From Bacteroidia bacterium (GTDB taxonomy: Bacteria > Bacteroidota > Bacteroidia > J057): 47,949 nt of DNA. Shown in pieces: positions 39,227 through 47,930 of the stretch. The stretch covers positions 1 through 47,949 of the forward strand of contig JAIBAH010000021.1 of NCBI GenBank assembly GCA_019695295.1. Direction: 5' to 3'. The position numbers and the translations under genes were made by a program. The notes beneath the pieces are model-generated. The model worked only from the letters and a program-made list of their open reading frames with translations. It made no database searches and had not been told where the DNA came from. How positions within the stretch are numbered: the stretch's first letter is position 1; each line of letters starts with the position of its first letter.

Positions 39227-40651
39227 TTAATTACAACCCCCTTCTTCATTTCTGAGAATGTCCAGGTTACCGGCAATTTCCGCATTCGGAATCTGAGCAA
39301 TCATTCCGGGGCAATTCCAGACCACCGGCTCAAGCACACGAATTGTCAAGTTGGGTTGTTCAAAAGCCCCGATTCTTTTTATGTCATGCAAGCGGTTTCC
39401 TTCGCTGAACATTTCGATACGACGCTGTTTCCGTACTTCATTTTTCAGTGCTGTGGCATCGGTTGCGGTGAAGTCTGTGAGACCTGCCCGGTTTCTGATT
39501 GCGTTCAGGTCTGCCAGTGCGGCCAGCGGATTAGAAGCCGCAAGACATTCCGCTCTCATCAGTTTCAAATCGGTCAGATGAATTACCGGAATAATGAACT
39601 TTCTGCTATTATTGAGGTAATTATATTTTTTGTTGATAACGACTGTCCTTCCGTCCACGTTGCCTGTTTCAATCCATGCAGCAGCCCTCAAATCATTGGG
39701 TTCTGAGTTTACAAGAGATAGAATTTCCTCAGAAACCGGAAGGTCTGCATTACCATTAGAGCGTTTTTTGTACCGGTCCAGCAGTTCTGTATTGATATCT
39801 TCACGGCTATACAATCCAAAAATCACTTCTTTTCCAAAAGGCTGGGCATCCGTTCCCCAGGTTGAAATTCTTTTTTCGAGGTCCATTTCAAGGTCATTTC
39901 CCTGATGCTGAATTACTTCATCCAGCAACGGAAGACAACCGGCGGTATTATTCATCTGAAAAAGTACCCTTGCTTTATAGGCTTTTGCTGCCCAGACATC
40001 GGCATACCATTTGGGTACGTTGTAATTCCCCCCTAAAGCAGAGATTGCTTCGTCAAGGTCTTTCAGTACCTGAGTATATACTTCCTGAGTGGTATTTCTG
40101 AGTCCTCTGTCCTGGCTTGGCTCTAATCTGAGGGGAATTCCGGATTGTGTTTCATTTTCTCTTCCGCTTCCGTAAGGCTGCCCAAACAGGCGTACCACTT
40201 CAAAGTGCCCTACGGCTCTCCAGAATTTGCATTGACCTTCGAACCATTTTTTATCCTGCTCTGTAAGTCCGGGAACGGATTCCAGATTTGCAAGGATGGT
40301 ATTGGCACGATAAATTACGATATAAGGGTCTTGCCAGACTTCCCCGCAGGCAGGGATAAAAATAGAAGTTCTGTGATTATAGAAGGAGCCCCAGTCGGTT
40401 GTAAACAGGGTTCCATCCAGGTCATCGGCCATCATATCGGCAAGATACCAGGTTCTTCCTCCGAAATAATTACCGGAGCGGGCTGCGTCATACGAACTGT
40501 TGAGCAGCTTCATGAGACTATCCTTATTCTTCAATGCGTCTTCTTCGAGAATTACGCCTTCCGGCTTCAACTCCAGAAAGTCTTTACAGGAAGTAAATGC
40601 CACTCCTGTGAGAAGAAATAATAAAAAGATATAATTTGATATTTTTTTCAT
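39227..40651 (-). CDS. SusD/RagB-family outer-membrane lipoprotein
   Basis: 474 residues with a lipobox F-T-S-C at about residue 22 followed by K-D-F-L-E-L-K-P-E-G, the normal SusD start. A helical TPR-like body follows, with V-Y-T-Q-V-L-K-D-L-D-E-A, K-A-Y-K-A-R-V-L-F-Q-M-N and, near the C-terminus, L-M-R-A-E-C-L-A-A... L-N-A-I-R-N-R-A-G-L and R-R-I-E-M-F-S-E-G-N-R-L-H-D-I-K-R. These match the RagB/SusD family. It sits on the cell surface as the lid of the SusC transporter and binds the oligomer to be imported. It lies 20 bp after susC. Confidence 0.95.
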   Translation of the reverse strand: MKKISNYIFLLFLLTGVAFTSCKDFLELKPEGVILEEDALKNKDSLMKLLNSSYDAARSGNYFGGRTWYLADMMADDLDGTLFTTDWGSFYNHRTSIFIPACGEVWQDPYIVIYRANTILANLESVPGLTEQDKKWFEGQCKFWRAVGHFEVVRLFGQPYGSGRENETQSGIPLRLEPSQDRGLRNTTQEVYTQVLKDLDEAISALGGNYNVPKWYADVWAAKAYKARVLFQMNNTAGCLPLLDEVIQHQGNDLEMDLEKRISTWGTDAQPFGKEVIFGLYSREDINTELLDRYKKRSNGNADLPVSEEILSLVNSEPNDLRAAAWIETGNVDGRTVVINKKYNYLNNSRKFIIPVIHLTDLKLMRAECLAASNPLAALADLNAIRNRAGLTDFTATDATALKNEVRKQRRIEMFSEGNRLHDIKRIGAFEQPNLTIRVLEPVVWNCPGMIAQIPNAEIAGNLDILRNEEGGCN

Positions 40652-40671: not shown

Positions 40672-43600
40672 TTAAAGTCCGACATTAATACCGACACTGA
40701 AAGAACGCTGCTGAGGTGCAGTAAGATAAGTAACCCCGACAGACATGTTTCTGTCCTGAGGGTTTTCAAAATCCCTTGCAATCTCAGGGTCAAGCCCCGG
40801 ATAGTTCGTAAGGGTAAGCAGGTTGGTAGCAATCGCATAGAAACGAAGGGATTTGATTTTTGAGGAAGAAGGCAATGTGTGTGTGTAACCTACGGTAAGG
40901 TTTTTCAGACGTGCATAGGATGCGTCATATAACCATAAAGTAGAGTTGTACTGCCATTCAGAAGACAATCCGTACATTCCGGGATCCATGGTAAGGCGCG
41001 GATAAGTAGCAACATCTCCGGGTTTTCTCCATCTGTCAAAAATCTCTGTACGCATATTCCAGTCTGTTACTACTCCAATCTGACGTTTTACGGAATTATC
41101 GTACAGGTCTCCGCCGATAGAGTAAGCAATCAGTGCATTAACATCAAATTTACCAAAAGTGAACGTATTACTGAATCCTCCTACTGCGTCAGGCAATACT
41201 TTGCCTACTACGATACGGTGAGATTCAGACCACTGTTTGGTGGGATTTCCCAGTGTATCGAGATAAATGGGTCTTCCGTCCACAGGGTCAACTCCTCCCC
41301 AGACTACTCTGAAGTGAGTACCAATGGGGTGTCCTACAAGAATACGGGTATCGTTGGTTCCTCCGGATAAAGCGTCCGGAGAAGCTCCGCCAATGTCGAG
41401 TACTTTGTTGATATTTCTGGCAATATTAAAGTTCGTTGTCCATTTGAAATTTTTAGTATCAACGGGAGTAGCAGTTACATTAAACTCCAACCCTCTGTTC
41501 ATGATAGAACCAATGTTCTGATAGTAGGTACCAAACCCTGTGGAGGACTGAACTACACCGTTAATCAACAGGTCTGTGGTTTTTTTATCATAAAATTCCA
41601 GTCCGAACTGAACGCGGTCATTCCACATTCCCACTTCAATTCCTCCGTCTAATGTACGGGTTTTTTCCCATCTCAGGTCAGGGTTGGAAAGCTGAGTAGG
41701 GAAAATGATGGCATTGTCATTATAAGAGATATTGGAATTCTGGAAATAACCAAAACGCTGATAGTTGGGAATATTGGCATTTCCGGTGTATCCCCAGCTT
41801 GCTTTCAGTTTCAGGAAGTTCAGAACGCTGTTGTCTTTCAGGAAATTTTCTTCGGAAATAACCCATGCAACTCCTACCGTAGGAAAAGTACCCCAGCGAT
41901 AATTGGAACCGAAACGGGAAGAAGCATCCCGGCGAATGGTAGCCTGTAAGAAGTATTTATCCTTGAAGGCATAGTTTAAACGGGAGAAATAACTGAGGAA
42001 TGACCATGCCTGAACCGGGGCTTTGTAGGTAGAAGTAGTATCAATGACTAAATCACCAATCGCATTGGGTCTTTGATAAATATGTCTGTCGGCATTGTCA
42101 ATACTAAGGGAATTATAACGGGAAACCGATTTTTGGGCTTCTGATCCTCCCAATATATATAATGTATGATTTTCACCAAGGTCAAAGTTGTACTGAGCCG
42201 TAATGTTTGCGCTTCTGTTGTTGGTAATTACGCGGGAACGGCTGGCTCTTGCGATATGATTGGACTGATCATAGACTGTATCTTCATAGATATTGTCGTC
42301 CCAGTTCATAAAATCATAATTTCCGGTAGCCCTGATTTCAAGGTTTCTGACAGGGGTAAGGGAAAGCACCGCATTATTGATGGAGCGCCATTCTACCGTA
42401 CGCCATTTTCTGTGATTCCTGCGGAAGTAAGGATCATCTCCGCCAAGGTAGCCATCAGCAGGATAAATATTCAGAAGAGTGGAATTGGCTGCACCAAATC
42501 CCCCTGCGTCCCAGGCCTGAGACACCCGGTTGTTTAACCCCTGTGCGAGGGAGGTATTCACAGTAGCTTTTATCCATTTGGCTACGTTCCAGTCCAGGTT
42601 ATACCGGCCGCTGTATCTTTGGAAACTGTTTCCTTTCAGGTAACTTTCGTCATTCAGATAGCCGGCTCCCAGATATGAGCTAAACTTTTTGTTTCCCTGC
42701 TTCATTCCCATTGTATATTCCTGCTTCACACCCGTACCTACGGTCATACCAACCCAGTCAGTATTGGTTTTGAGTGCGTCTTCCCAGGTAATATTTCTGG
42801 GCAAAGGAGCTCTTCCCACATTTCCGTCGTTTTCCCAGGCTTCCTGACGAAGCTGAAGCCACTCCTGATTGTTGGTAAATTTATGCAGTCTGGTAGGGGT
42901 AGATGCTCCTACTCTTGCGGAAAAATCAAACTGAGGTTTTCCGGATTGTCCTTTTTTGGTGGTGATAAGAATTACTCCGTTTGCACCACGGGAACCATAA
43001 ATCCCTGCGGCGGCGGCATCTTTTAAGACTTCAATGGACTCTATATCATTGGGATTAATACTGTTCAGGGGATTGTTATTTTGCCCTCCCCTGTTGGCAG
43101 AAGCGCCACTGGGAAAAATATCCTGTGTAATGGGAATTCCATCTACTACATACAGCGGGTCGCCACTTGCAGATATAGAATTTATCCCGCGGATACGGAT
43201 TACCGCTCCTGAACCCGCAGCACCGGAACTCTGTACAACCTGTACACCGGGGGCTTTCCCCTGAAGGTTCACTTCAAAACTGTTTCCTACATTGTCATTC
43301 ACATTTTTGACTTTGGCAATCGAACTGGTCAGGTCTCTTTTGCGCATAGTTCCATAGCCTACAATCACTACTTCGTTGGAGGTCGAAACTTCTTCCTGAA
43401 GCGTCACCTCAACGGTAGTTTCACCATTGCCTACAGTAACTGACTGAGTATAATCAGTATAACCAAAATAGTTTACTGTAAGGGTATATTCCCCGGCAGG
43501 AATTCCTTCTACCCGGAAATTTCCACCATCATCGGAGTAAGCCCCGTAATCCAGCCCCACCATTACGGTTGCACCGGACATAGGTTCTCCCTTTTCATTT

Positions 43601-43701
43601 TTCACTGTTCCTTTTACTACTCCCTGAGCATAAGAAAAAACAAAAGGAATAATAAGAAAACACAGAAGAAATAAATAATTTAACCGTAGTTTTTGATTCA
43701 T
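40672..43701 (-). CDS. SusC/RagA-family TonB-dependent transporter
   Basis: 1009 residues: signal peptide (about 1-26), a CarboxypepD-regulatory-like Ig domain (about 28-105, GVVKGTVKNEKGEPMSGATV), a TonB-box-type segment (S-N-E-V-V-I-V-G-Y-G-T), the plug domain (D-P-L-Y-V-V-D-G-I-P-I, ESIEVLKDAAAAGIYGSRGA) and a 22-strand barrel. It imports oligosaccharides or peptides across the outer membrane, driven by ExbB/ExbD/TonB, with SusD as lid. First gene of a four-gene operon. No ECF sigma factor, hybrid sensor or glycoside hydrolase is attached, so the substrate cannot be named. Confidence 0.96.
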   Translation of the reverse strand: MNQKLRLNYLFLLCFLIIPFVFSYAQGVVKGTVKNEKGEPMSGATVMVGLDYGAYSDDGGNFRVEGIPAGEYTLTVNYFGYTDYTQSVTVGNGETTVEVTLQEEVSTSNEVVIVGYGTMRKRDLTSSIAKVKNVNDNVGNSFEVNLQGKAPGVQVVQSSGAAGSGAVIRIRGINSISASGDPLYVVDGIPITQDIFPSGASANRGGQNNNPLNSINPNDIESIEVLKDAAAAGIYGSRGANGVILITTKKGQSGKPQFDFSARVGASTPTRLHKFTNNQEWLQLRQEAWENDGNVGRAPLPRNITWEDALKTNTDWVGMTVGTGVKQEYTMGMKQGNKKFSSYLGAGYLNDESYLKGNSFQRYSGRYNLDWNVAKWIKATVNTSLAQGLNNRVSQAWDAGGFGAANSTLLNIYPADGYLGGDDPYFRRNHRKWRTVEWRSINNAVLSLTPVRNLEIRATGNYDFMNWDDNIYEDTVYDQSNHIARASRSRVITNNRSANITAQYNFDLGENHTLYILGGSEAQKSVSRYNSLSIDNADRHIYQRPNAIGDLVIDTTSTYKAPVQAWSFLSYFSRLNYAFKDKYFLQATIRRDASSRFGSNYRWGTFPTVGVAWVISEENFLKDNSVLNFLKLKASWGYTGNANIPNYQRFGYFQNSNISYNDNAIIFPTQLSNPDLRWEKTRTLDGGIEVGMWNDRVQFGLEFYDKKTTDLLINGVVQSSTGFGTYYQNIGSIMNRGLEFNVTATPVDTKNFKWTTNFNIARNINKVLDIGGASPDALSGGTNDTRILVGHPIGTHFRVVWGGVDPVDGRPIYLDTLGNPTKQWSESHRIVVGKVLPDAVGGFSNTFTFGKFDVNALIAYSIGGDLYDNSVKRQIGVVTDWNMRTEIFDRWRKPGDVATYPRLTMDPGMYGLSSEWQYNSTLWLYDASYARLKNLTVGYTHTLPSSSKIKSLRFYAIATNLLTLTNYPGLDPEIARDFENPQDRNMSVGVTYLTAPQQRSFSVGINVGL

Positions 43702-43933
43702 AAAATCCTCAATTTGTTAAACAATTATTAACCAATTTTAAACGGGCGCAAATTATTAAACTTTTATGAAAACAAAAAAAAAAATCTCTTCAATCTGTTA
43801 ATTTTTAATATTTTTTTTGTTTTTTTAATCAATTTATTCTATAAAACATCAAAAATATAATAATTTCTAATTTATCAAAGGGATGTATCTCTGTTAGGGG
43901 ATAAAAACAGAATAGTTAAAACATTGTGTTACA

Positions 43934-45883
43934 TTACTTTCCGTATAACCGGGCTTGTTTAATATATATTTTCCGGGTTCTTTCTTCCAGTTTAAATTCT
44001 ATATCCAATGCGAAACTGTCGTAGTCTGTAGCATTGATTCCAAGCGGGGTGAAATAAAAATGTTTTTTCACTGCGGTGATAATGTCGGCAAGTTGAAAGA
44101 TTTCTTCCTGAGTCATGACGGGTTTTCCCTGAGTAAGATTGGATTTTGAGATATATTCTACGATTTCTTCCTCTCTTCCATTTATTCCGTAAGTAAAATG
44201 TATCAAAAACTGATCGCAGGTGATGGAATCATTTTCGGGTAAAACTACGCTGGTTTCGCCCTCCTGCGCATTTACCGTAAAGGAAGGATAATCTTTCCGG
44301 TACAGGTTTTTGGTGACAACCACACCGTTTACGGCTTCATCCCCAAAGGCCCTGTGAACCAGAATTCCCATTGCAATGGTGGAATGGTCTATTTTGTAAA
44401 ATTCTCTCTCTTCAAAGGCCCTGATGTTCCACAAACTTGCATACACTTTTTTGATGGCTTCATCCACGGGCTTGTCTTTGTCACCGGGTATTCCGGTTTT
44501 GGAGGTATAAAGCCCGGCTCCGTTGAATCCGGGAATATCTTCGGCATTGGTAGAGGAGCGAAACCGGTATGCTTCAAAGGGCAAAGCAGAACTCCGGATT
44601 TTTTTTTCGGTCATTTTCACGAGCTCCGGACTCAAAGGGGCATTTTTAATTGCTTTTTGAAGTTTTTTAAGCCTTTTCTCTAAAGAATCCCGGTTGGATA
44701 ACAGCATATTATCGTTGAGGATTTCGTCTATCAGCGGCTGAATTCCGTTTTGGGCGATGTGTTGCTGATAGAAATAAAAAGGGATGATAAATCCGCCTTC
44801 GGGTATTGTCAGGGGGGTCTTTTTGCTGGTTTTTACTTTGGCTAATTCTGCGAAATTTGCGGCTTTTCCTCCTACTTTGTTGATGTCTTTGCAACCGGTT
44901 TCTTCGAGGGTCATCAGTCTTTTGACGGAGTAATCCGGTTTGAAGCGGGTGGGTTTTTGTACAGATTTTTGTTTCTCCCAGAATTTTACTGCAAGCAGAC
45001 TGTCAGCGGTACGAAGGATGAGGGAATCCCGGTTAACGGAATAATACACCAACTTCCCCAGATACTGATCTATTTTGGGATTGTCAAATGCGTTTTTCCA
45101 TGCGGCATTGGGAGTTCCCCGGTTTGCAGAAAGGATATTGATGTGGCATAAAGGTGTCTGAAAACAACTGGTAATGATTCCCTGACAAATCGGAAATTCG
45201 TTGGGAAGGCCATTGGTGATGATGATGTCATTCGGAGAGAAAAGGGTTTTAGGAAAGTCTTTTACGTCCACTTTTCTGAGATATCCGTAACTGTAAGTCA
45301 GATTCAGGGGTTGATATACCTGATTTTTATAGAGGCTGTCCACTGAAAGGACGGGCAGGTTCAGCTTACTGATTTTTTCATTCATCAAATCTGAATTATT
45401 GAGCAGTTTTAATTTCCCCCCGAAAGCGGTCGTGGCTTTTACTTTTTCAAACAGTTCTTTTATTCTTTCGGGTGAGACTTTGTCATCGGCAAAAAACTCC
45501 AGAGTATAGATATCCGGGCCTTCGTAGTGGTTCAGGTTTGCCAGTATGTATCTCCTCCCCTTTCCTTCTGAGTATTCAATGGTGTTGAATACTGCAAGAT
45601 TGTTGTATGTTTTGAGATAATCGAAGCAAAATTCGTAATGAAATTTATATTTTACGGAGTGTATGTAGTATATTTTCTTTTTGGCAATCTCATAGACTAT
45701 TTTTATGGCGGAGACATTGCCGTATTTCTGGGAAAGCGGGGCTCCTTTTAGGATTTCAAAGTCTTTTTTGCAGAGTATTTCGGATAAATAATCTACTTTT
45801 CCGCCTTTGTATGCGCAGTTTTGTGCGAAAGCGGATATCGTAATGATGAATAAATATAAGGTTACGGCTTTGATTTTTTTCAT
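43934..45883 (-). CDS. Exported PEP/pyruvate-dikinase-like protein with glucan-water-dikinase domain order
   Basis: 649 residues. A signal peptide covers 1-20 (ending ISAFAQ). A region of unknown fold follows (about 25-210). At about 215-295 is a phosphohistidine swivel-type domain with the candidate catalytic H247 in T-P-L-C-H-I-N-I-L-S-A-N-R-G-T-P. The C-terminal ~320 residues are a PPDK/PEP-synthase N-type ATP-grasp domain (VGGKAAN 337-343, RSSTNAED 442-449, GFNGAGLY 452-459, then Y-A-S-L-W-N-I-R-A-F). The order His domain then ATP domain is that of plant glucan/phosphoglucan water dikinases, not of PEP synthase. An exported kinase is odd because ATP is scarce outside the cytoplasm. It lies 232 bp upstream of susC, same strand. 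A phosphoryl-transfer role on a glycan is only a hypothesis. Confidence 0.85.
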   Translation of the reverse strand: MKKIKAVTLYLFIITISAFAQNCAYKGGKVDYLSEILCKKDFEILKGAPLSQKYGNVSAIKIVYEIAKKKIYYIHSVKYKFHYEFCFDYLKTYNNLAVFNTIEYSEGKGRRYILANLNHYEGPDIYTLEFFADDKVSPERIKELFEKVKATTAFGGKLKLLNNSDLMNEKISKLNLPVLSVDSLYKNQVYQPLNLTYSYGYLRKVDVKDFPKTLFSPNDIIITNGLPNEFPICQGIITSCFQTPLCHINILSANRGTPNAAWKNAFDNPKIDQYLGKLVYYSVNRDSLILRTADSLLAVKFWEKQKSVQKPTRFKPDYSVKRLMTLEETGCKDINKVGGKAANFAELAKVKTSKKTPLTIPEGGFIIPFYFYQQHIAQNGIQPLIDEILNDNMLLSNRDSLEKRLKKLQKAIKNAPLSPELVKMTEKKIRSSALPFEAYRFRSSTNAEDIPGFNGAGLYTSKTGIPGDKDKPVDEAIKKVYASLWNIRAFEEREFYKIDHSTIAMGILVHRAFGDEAVNGVVVTKNLYRKDYPSFTVNAQEGETSVVLPENDSITCDQFLIHFTYGINGREEEIVEYISKSNLTQGKPVMTQEEIFQLADIITAVKKHFYFTPLGINATDYDSFALDIEFKLEERTRKIYIKQARLYGK

Positions 45884-45969: not shown

Positions 45970-46003
45970 AAAAACGCTTCGGGGGTTTGAAATCCCCGAA
46001 GCG
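45970..46003 (-). terminator. Terminator after glyA
   Basis: Ten-base perfect arms CGCTTCGGGG (45975-45984) and CCCCGAAGCG (45994-46003) followed by TTTTT on the minus strand, 18 bases past the glyA stop. Confidence 0.9.
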
Positions 46004-47534: not shown

Positions 47535-47930
47535 ATGAAAATGAATGAAAAACGGTTGCGATTATTTGAATTTCACAGTCGATTTCCTGAGCAATCGACC
47601 CGATTTCCTGAACAATCGATGCGATTTCTTGAGTCATCGACTCGATTTCTTGAACAATCGATGCGATTTCTTGAACGTTCGACGCGATTTCTTGAGCGTT
47701 CGACCCGATTTCCTGAACAATCGATGCGATTTCTTGAACGTTCGATGCGATTTCTTGAACGTTCGACGCGATTTCTTGAACAATCGATGCGAATTCTTGA
47801 GCGGTCGAAGCGATTTCTTGAGCGGTCGGTGAGACGTTTCGTGAAACGTCTTTACAAGGGGCGTGGGAGACGTTTCGTGAAGCGTTTACGGAGGGGGGTA
47901 TTTTCGTACTATCATAATTTCCTGGTTTGA
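47535..47930 (+). CDS. Doubtful ORF of heptapeptide repeats over second 21-bp array
   Basis: 131 codons, beginning MKMNEKRLRLFEFHS, then about 12 heptads of the form M/T-R-F-L-E-Q/R-S, then an Arg/Lys-rich tail over the palindromic repeats (RRFVKRLYKGRGRRFVKRL). A second plus-strand frame (47545-47832) is also open (C-D-F-L-N-N-R heptads), as expected for a stop-free unit of 21 bases. No promoter or ribosome-binding context is seen. Coding is possible but not supported beyond openness and the M-x-F-x-x-Q-S register shared with the left array. Confidence 0.2.
   Translation: MKMNEKRLRLFEFHSRFPEQSTRFPEQSMRFLESSTRFLEQSMRFLERSTRFLERSTRFPEQSMRFLERSMRFLERSTRFLEQSMRILERSKRFLERSVRRFVKRLYKGRGRRFVKRLRRGVFSYYHNFLV
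47560..47832. repeat. Tandem array of a different 21-bp unit, 12 copies plus one degenerate
   Basis: Twelve units of exactly 21 bases run from 47581 to 47832; a decayed unit precedes them at 47560-47580. Constant parts are GATTTC-Y-TGA (unit positions 1-10) and TCGA (15-18). Variation clusters at 11-14 (ACAA, ACGT, GCAA, GCGT, GTCA, GCGG) and 19-21 (TGC, CGC, CCC, CTC, AGC). There are no unique spacers. The last unit is degenerate and runs straight into a palindromic repeat. Confidence 0.95.
47831..47885. repeat. REP-like palindromes, two direct copies
   Basis: A 19-base word beginning GAGACGTTTCGTGAA occurs at 47831-47849 and again, with one base changed, at 47867-47885. In the first copy GACGTTTC-GT-GAAACGTC is a perfect 8-bp hairpin with a 2-base loop. 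Both copies are followed by a G-run (AAGGGG, GGAGGGGGG). The design, a tight hairpin next to a G/C run, resembles the cluster at 1.7 kb. Confidence 0.65.

Follow-up and report, generated by a model that had tools for sequence, protein, structure and literature searches.

What an exported dikinase might phosphorylate, and from which donor, is the question raised by a gene on the minus strand (43934..45883) of the window, i.e. the whole 47,949-nucleotide stretch of Bacteroidia DNA analysed here. The gene starts with ATG and encodes 649 amino acids followed by a stop codon. A first-pass annotation had described its product as an exported protein in which a swivel-type histidine domain precedes a PPDK-type ATP-grasp, had likened this order to that of plant starch dikinases, had noted a neighbouring SusC/SusD pair and had suggested an assay with starch. 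The characterised His-swivel dikinases that we discuss work where ATP is at hand, in the cytoplasm or plastid, and we found no paper in the open-access literature on an exported member of the superfamily. The extracytoplasmic donor is a question common to secreted kinases such as CotH, a Ser/Thr kinase that acts on a spore coat protein (PMC7821199).

The C-terminal catalytic domain (residues 319–649; 43937..44929, minus strand) was recognised by profile and by structure, as the first-pass annotation had predicted. Within the region 330–649, for which it had proposed a profile search, hmmscan found PPDK_N (PF01326) at residues 335–645 (E 1.3e-29), and the modelled ATP-grasp aligned with that of RPH (Z 28.0, 2.5 A, 289 residues) and of PEP synthase 2ols (Z 26.8) in structure comparison. 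PPDK_N was the sole Pfam domain in the protein; the search detected neither a His/swivel domain nor the CotH domain PF08757. The NCBIfam PEP synthase models scored 92–106 bits against cut-offs of 598–740, and the RPH model 59 against a cut-off of 999, so that beyond PPDK_N and these low-scoring equivalogs no named family was returned from Pfam or NCBIfam, and the dikinase family is without a model of its own in either collection. It is also the only PPDK_N protein that we found in the window's genome, a 97 %-complete assembly in which we found no PEP synthase or PPDK.

The residues expected of a dikinase align with their counterparts in PEP synthase. K340 (44864..44866) aligns with the GGK lysine (Lys22 of PPDK and RPH) and R442 of the RSSTNAED segment (44558..44560) with the arginine that binds ATP phosphate; both, together with H247, are invariant in 24 of 24 homologues. 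E629, at the Mg-site glutamate position (43997..43999), and Q643-A-R645, the QxR motif of the ATP site (43949..43957), are invariant in all 23 homologues that reach them, the remaining one being truncated. Conservation of H247 and the ATP-site residues, a check that the first-pass annotation had called for, was therefore complete, and the putative ATP site has the ATP-grasp lysine, arginine and Gln-x-Arg of the superfamily. These residues do not weigh equally, since Lys22 is essential in RPH and the Mg-site Glu297 is dispensable (PMC4844700); the conservation of E629 accordingly counts for less.

The case for export rests on the N-terminus, which reads MKKIKAVTLYLFIITISAFA followed by QNC and was judged by sequence to be signal-peptide-like. 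The predicted signal peptide comprises residues 1–21 (MKKIKAVTLYLFIITISAFAQ; 45821..45883, minus strand), with cleavage probably after AFA. Its Kyte–Doolittle 12-mer peak is 2.29, against 0.85–1.15 for two cytoplasmic PEP synthases, and the homologues with a true 5′ end likewise have a hydrophobic N-terminus (12-mer hydropathy 2.0–3.3; the true start of one homologue in this comparison, L002, is uncertain). Signal-like N-termini recur in Bacteroidota, in Gammaproteobacteria and in one Bacteriovoracaceae MAG, and hydropathy and recurrence together support the export that had been proposed. In the gammaproteobacterial members, EF-hand-like segments follow the signal by eye. An order-wide search around the gammaproteobacterial member found the dikinase in only 1 of 293 genomes, so the gene is rare in that order.

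Identification of the swivel domain relied in part on modelling. A first AlphaFold2 model of the full-length protein, built from seven sequences, predicted the ATP-grasp well but the swivel region poorly (pLDDT about 40–60 around H247), and residues 22–325 were therefore modelled anew. The new model had a mean pLDDT of 73.9, the middle domain lying mostly at 70–93 with a few weaker blocks, and in it a helix begins exactly at H247 (model residue 226; 45143..45145, minus strand). Model residues 169–272, corresponding to protein residues 190–293 (45005..45316, minus strand), aligned in structure comparison (VIA-align) with the swivel domain of RPH (RPH residues 767–867) with Z 10.8 and rmsd 2.1–2.2 A over 96–97 residues; Z was 8.6–9.9 with Enzyme I N-terminal domains and 6.5–7.7 with the PPDK phosphocarrier/swivel domain. 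Since a pyruvate kinase domain also scored about Z 10 against the 22–325 model, the fold alone does not prove a phosphocarrier, and it is the conserved histidine that carries the argument. In profile comparisons the middle domain matched that of a second exported family, described below (hhalign 98 %, E 7e-14), and, weakly, PEP synthase swivels (P 0.0016, probability only 6 %), the histidines being in register in both cases. Thus the histidine domain that had been placed at residues 210–295 escaped Pfam, whose mobile-domain profiles had been suggested for its recognition, and was recovered by structure comparison, by the profile match and by conservation of H247 in 24 of 24 homologues. The predicted phosphocarrier histidine stands at the start of the modelled swivel helix, as is usual in the superfamily.

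Between signal and swivel lies a domain (residues 22–189; 45317..45820, minus strand) that is conserved across the family, belongs to no Pfam family and is a candidate for binding the acceptor. It had no match among the matches listed when the joint 22–325 model was compared with known structures, which is not evidence of a new fold because the domain was modelled only jointly with the swivel.

The His loop of most members reads T/SxxQTPLSH, followed in the window protein and its relatives by V or I. Plant GWD also has LSH at this position, a likeness that we treat as a lead and not as a test. In the typical loop, T/SxxGGxxxH (PMC12167813), the place of QT is taken by GG. This substitution, together with the interruption of one congener's orthologue by a frameshift or stop, might be taken to mean that the protein is a pseudoenzyme or a mispredicted cytoplasmic protein; given that H247 and the residues of the ATP site do not vary wherever they could be aligned and that signal-like N-termini recur across phyla, we consider this extremely improbable.

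The domain order was the central point of the first-pass annotation, and it stands, because a swivel followed by a C-terminal ATP-grasp is the order of the plant starch dikinases GWD and PWD and not that of PEP synthase or PPDK. In GWD the phosphohistidine domain is N-terminal to the nucleotide-binding domain (PMC6805951), which resembles that of PPDK and PEP synthase, and the N-terminal region of the window protein could, as in GWD and PWD, bind the acceptor. This likeness refers to published descriptions only: high-resolution GWD structures are missing (PMC12892837), and a PDB sequence search for a GWD relative of the dikinase returned none. The differences are considerable. GWD and PWD have about 1000–1420 amino acids, against 649 in a bacterial and apparently exported protein; they have CBM45 or CBM20, whereas a Pfam search up to E 1 found no carbohydrate-binding module in the dikinase; and they have a redox motif just after the catalytic histidine, CFATC or VFVTC with variation among plant isoforms (PMC6805951), whereas H247 is followed by INILSANRGTPNAAWKNAF, in which CFATC is absent.

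Among solved structures RPH is the closest for both catalytic domains (Z 28 and Z 10.8), yet its order is ATP-grasp, acceptor (rifampin-binding) domain and swivel last (PMC4844700). The rifampin-binding domain is absent from the dikinase, and RPH shares its reverse order and GG-type His loop with HpeHI, CreHI and PpsAB, the phenolic dikinases made of two components. PEP synthase and PPDK share homologous ATP-grasp and swivel domains, but there the ATP-grasp comes first, the swivel is in the middle and a PEP/pyruvate domain, missing from the dikinase, is at the C-terminus; they are cytoplasmic or organellar where the dikinase appears to be exported, and the regulatory threonine two residues before their catalytic histidine is replaced by leucine. 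We know of no exported form of RPH, HpeHI, CreHI or PpsAB.

Loss of the PEP/pyruvate domain has a precedent in mycobacterial VadK, a PPDK-derived protein without the pyruvate domain that autophosphorylates and interacts with other enzymes (preprint PMC12636432). The window dikinase likewise lacks this domain, and H247 might, as has been proposed for VadK, autophosphorylate and pass its phosphate to partner proteins, here outside the cytoplasm. We regard such protein-histidine phosphotransfer as unlikely: in VadK the ATP-grasp precedes the His domain (PMC12636432), and VadK is not known to be exported; moreover, the conserved N-terminal domain of the window dikinase suggests a dedicated acceptor site.

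The genes surrounding the dikinase bear directly on the idea of a glycan substrate. As had been noted, a SusC/SusD pair lies on the same strand, with 232 bp between the dikinase stop codon and the ATG of SusC; Pfam agrees on both the SusC-like TonB-dependent receptor (40672..43701, minus strand) and the SusD-like lipoprotein (39227..40651, minus strand), which we treat as neighbours and not as components of the system. SusD is followed by two small proteins with signal-like N-termini. A motif scan found a Bacteroidota-type promoter-like motif (TTTG, spacer, TAnnTTTG; 43850..43879, minus strand) in the gap before SusC, which may thus have its own promoter; the whole window has eight matches to the motif, against 2.75 expected by chance. 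On the other side, a terminator-like hairpin (45970..46003, minus strand) with a 10-bp G+C-rich stem, a 9-nt loop and a T-run follows glyA; it was read from the sequence, its loop exceeding the scanner limit of 8 nt. An operon with the upstream glyA was considered and rejected, as this hairpin separates the two genes.

The adjacency of dikinase and SusC is kept only in the window's genome and in one congener (G002, 64 % identity). In a third congener (G001) the orthologue, its frame broken by a frameshift or stop, lies elsewhere and adjoins a helicase-like gene; no SusC linkage was seen in the other lineages viewed. SusC/SusD was therefore rejected as a general functional partner; the pair is a local, genus-level arrangement. 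G001 has, besides the interrupted orthologue (contig C162, locus L048), a divergent intact paralogue (contig C391, locus L049) with 37 % identity over residues 212–647; close to it, the opposite strand carries a SusC-like start.

The domain order and the neighbouring pair, conserved as it is in G002, would fit a bacterial counterpart of GWD/PWD that adds phosphate to an alpha-glucan, or to some other glycan, outside the cytoplasm and so aids uptake or breakdown by SusC/SusD. The SusC neighbour is confined to the genus, however, and the gap before it holds a promoter-like motif; Pfam found neither a glycosidase, lyase or amylase in or near the SusC/SusD operon of the window nor a carbohydrate-binding module in the protein, and there is no CFATC near H247 (motif: PMC6805951). 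A starch or glycan role thus finds no support here, and we think it distinctly unlikely.

The survey of genomic linkage that the SusC/SusD proposal had called for led instead to DUF4956, the neighbour that recurs across lineages. In a sample of 121 genomes of one genus, presumably Flavobacterium, 19 carry the dikinase and 24 carry DUF4956. The dikinase of this genus lies between mnmA and a DUF4956 gene, and in all 19 dikinase genomes, which as members of one genus are not independent, the DUF4956 gene is convergent (tail-to-tail) with it, the matched parts being −1 to 337 bp apart. Any DUF4956 was found in only 5 of the 102 genomes without dikinase, as VTC-DUF4956 (three), as DUF4956-CotH (one) or alone at the usual site beside mnmA, with no dikinase there (one). 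The association extends beyond the genus: in a phylum-wide draw of 395 genomes DUF4956 was present in 9/9 dikinase carriers versus 79/386 others (Fisher 1e-6), and by genus in 4/4 with dikinase versus 48/167 others (p 0.008). A genus of another family (g58) has the convergent pair at a different chromosomal site, with a DUF4956 that falls in the same clade as the dikinase-linked DUF4956 of the presumed Flavobacterium. The two genes are adjacent in G074 as well. In G054 the order is VTC-DUF4956-dikinase, all on one strand, with DUF4956 within 1.4 kb of the dikinase. Being convergent elsewhere, the two genes do not there form an operon.

Counting DUF4956 anywhere in the genome, 11 of the 13 dikinase carriers checked, other phyla included, have it; none was found in G002 (86 % complete) or G565. 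Gammaproteobacterial carriers have a VTC-DUF4956-CotH cluster elsewhere in the genome. Five genomes that have the convergent pair were sampled for CotH and VTC, the usual partners of DUF4956, and neither was found. A published accessory set of Pel polysaccharide loci, known from streptococci, clostridia and bifidobacteria, comprises DUF4956, CotH and a polyphosphate polymerase (PMC7112168). In our reading, the partner of DUF4956 is either VTC/CotH or the dikinase. In G517 (L089:7595-8251) the dikinase is cleanly missing, and a DUF4956 gene of the dikinase-linked clade lies between a MORN-repeat-like gene and mnmA, about 99 bp from the latter.

In the window's own genome the single DUF4956 gene is on another contig (C128), as are, on contigs other than the window's, one VTC and eight CotH matches, and none of these adjoins the dikinase. 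The DUF4956 link for the window protein therefore rests on its homologues, and a simple replacement of CotH cannot apply in this genome, where DUF4956, VTC and CotH are all present away from the dikinase. These matches lie on contigs C42, C53, C112 and others, and CotH, VTC and DUF4956 were not clustered in the neighbourhoods viewed on C42, C67 and C128.

Since relatives of the dikinase adjoin a membrane protein that accompanies a secreted kinase elsewhere, an envelope target is suggested rather than starch. Our working hypothesis, held tentatively and at a little below an even chance, is that the protein is an exported dikinase-type phosphotransferase that acts on an extracytoplasmic acceptor, beside or in place of CotH, in a DUF4956(-VTC) envelope module. 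By sequence and structure models the parts that it would need are in place, namely a signal-like N-terminus, a swivel with H247 and an ATP-grasp with its ATP-site residues kept. The CotH kinases of the VTC-DUF4956 module resemble it in exported or envelope location and, in other lineages, in DUF4956 neighbourhood, but they are a different protein family, and the dikinase adjoins DUF4956 in some lineages only, the window's genome not among them. By analogy with characterised relatives, the ATP-grasp would move the beta-phosphoryl group of ATP onto H247, releasing AMP and Pi; the swivel would then swing to the N-terminal domain with phospho-H247, and the phosphate would pass to an acceptor hydroxyl held there. 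Genomic context points to a surface protein or exopolysaccharide as the putative acceptor, and to an enzyme that may act alongside the secreted kinase CotH or in its stead. With DUF4956, an exported dikinase acquires a partner that can be put to the test and a possible setting.

That exported families keep their catalytic residues so strictly implies that ATP, or a donor equivalent to it, is available outside the cytoplasm. The second exported swivel/ATP-grasp family, of about 960–970 amino acids and found in other Bacteroidota (e.g. L050, L051, L052, L076 and L098), is instructive here. It shares with the dikinase the signal-like N-terminus, the swivel before the ATP-grasp and the middle-domain profile (98 %), but is about 29 % identical to it where the two align and has a different N-terminal region; none was found in the window's genome. 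Six genomes (G004, G006, G010, G119, G158 and G173) have enough flanking sequence to show the setting, and in these the family clusters with a HEAT-repeat fusion of an NTT/TLC-like translocase and with exported beta-lactamase-fold proteins, usually one beside the dikinase and one beside the translocase, although a contig end hides the first in G006. The loci of this cluster include L099 besides the five just named. In G004, G158 and G173 the translocase reaches the Pfam cut-off for TLC (ATP/ADP transporter); in G119 it does not. NTT-HEAT fusions occur in free-living bacteria (PMC5381601), and the cluster suggests a candidate role for them, as the ATP source of the exported enzyme. No other finding hints so directly at a supply of nucleotide to exported dikinases, but it is not evidence on the window protein; a TLC translocase as the ATP source of the latter was rejected, there being no TLC match in its genome.

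Were the enzyme to run in reverse or as a scavenger, with H247 loaded from extracellular ATP or from a phosphorylated substrate and phosphate or nucleotide recovered, ATP of that origin would settle the question of the donor. PPDK is reversible (PMC12636432), and HpeH by itself transfers phosphate from one acceptor to another (PMC12167813). Nothing else favours this possibility, and in the window there is no nucleotidase or phosphate-uptake gene beside the dikinase; it seems to us very unlikely. Returning to a phosphotransferase of the DUF4956 module, a broader proposal, possible but doubtful, is that two unrelated exported phosphotransferases, CotH and the swivel dikinase, serve DUF4956. The dikinase would be the sole one where CotH and VTC are missing and would thus modify envelope polymers or proteins through phosphohistidine, fed by exported ATP (in the sister family possibly by way of NTT-HEAT) or by exported polyphosphate.

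Apart from the dikinase, the window contains, at 47579–47828, tandem units of 21 and 63 bp (about 12 copies of 21 bp) that can be read as an open frame with many RFLE(Q/R)S repeats, and similar repeat-like frames were seen at loci L094 and L089.
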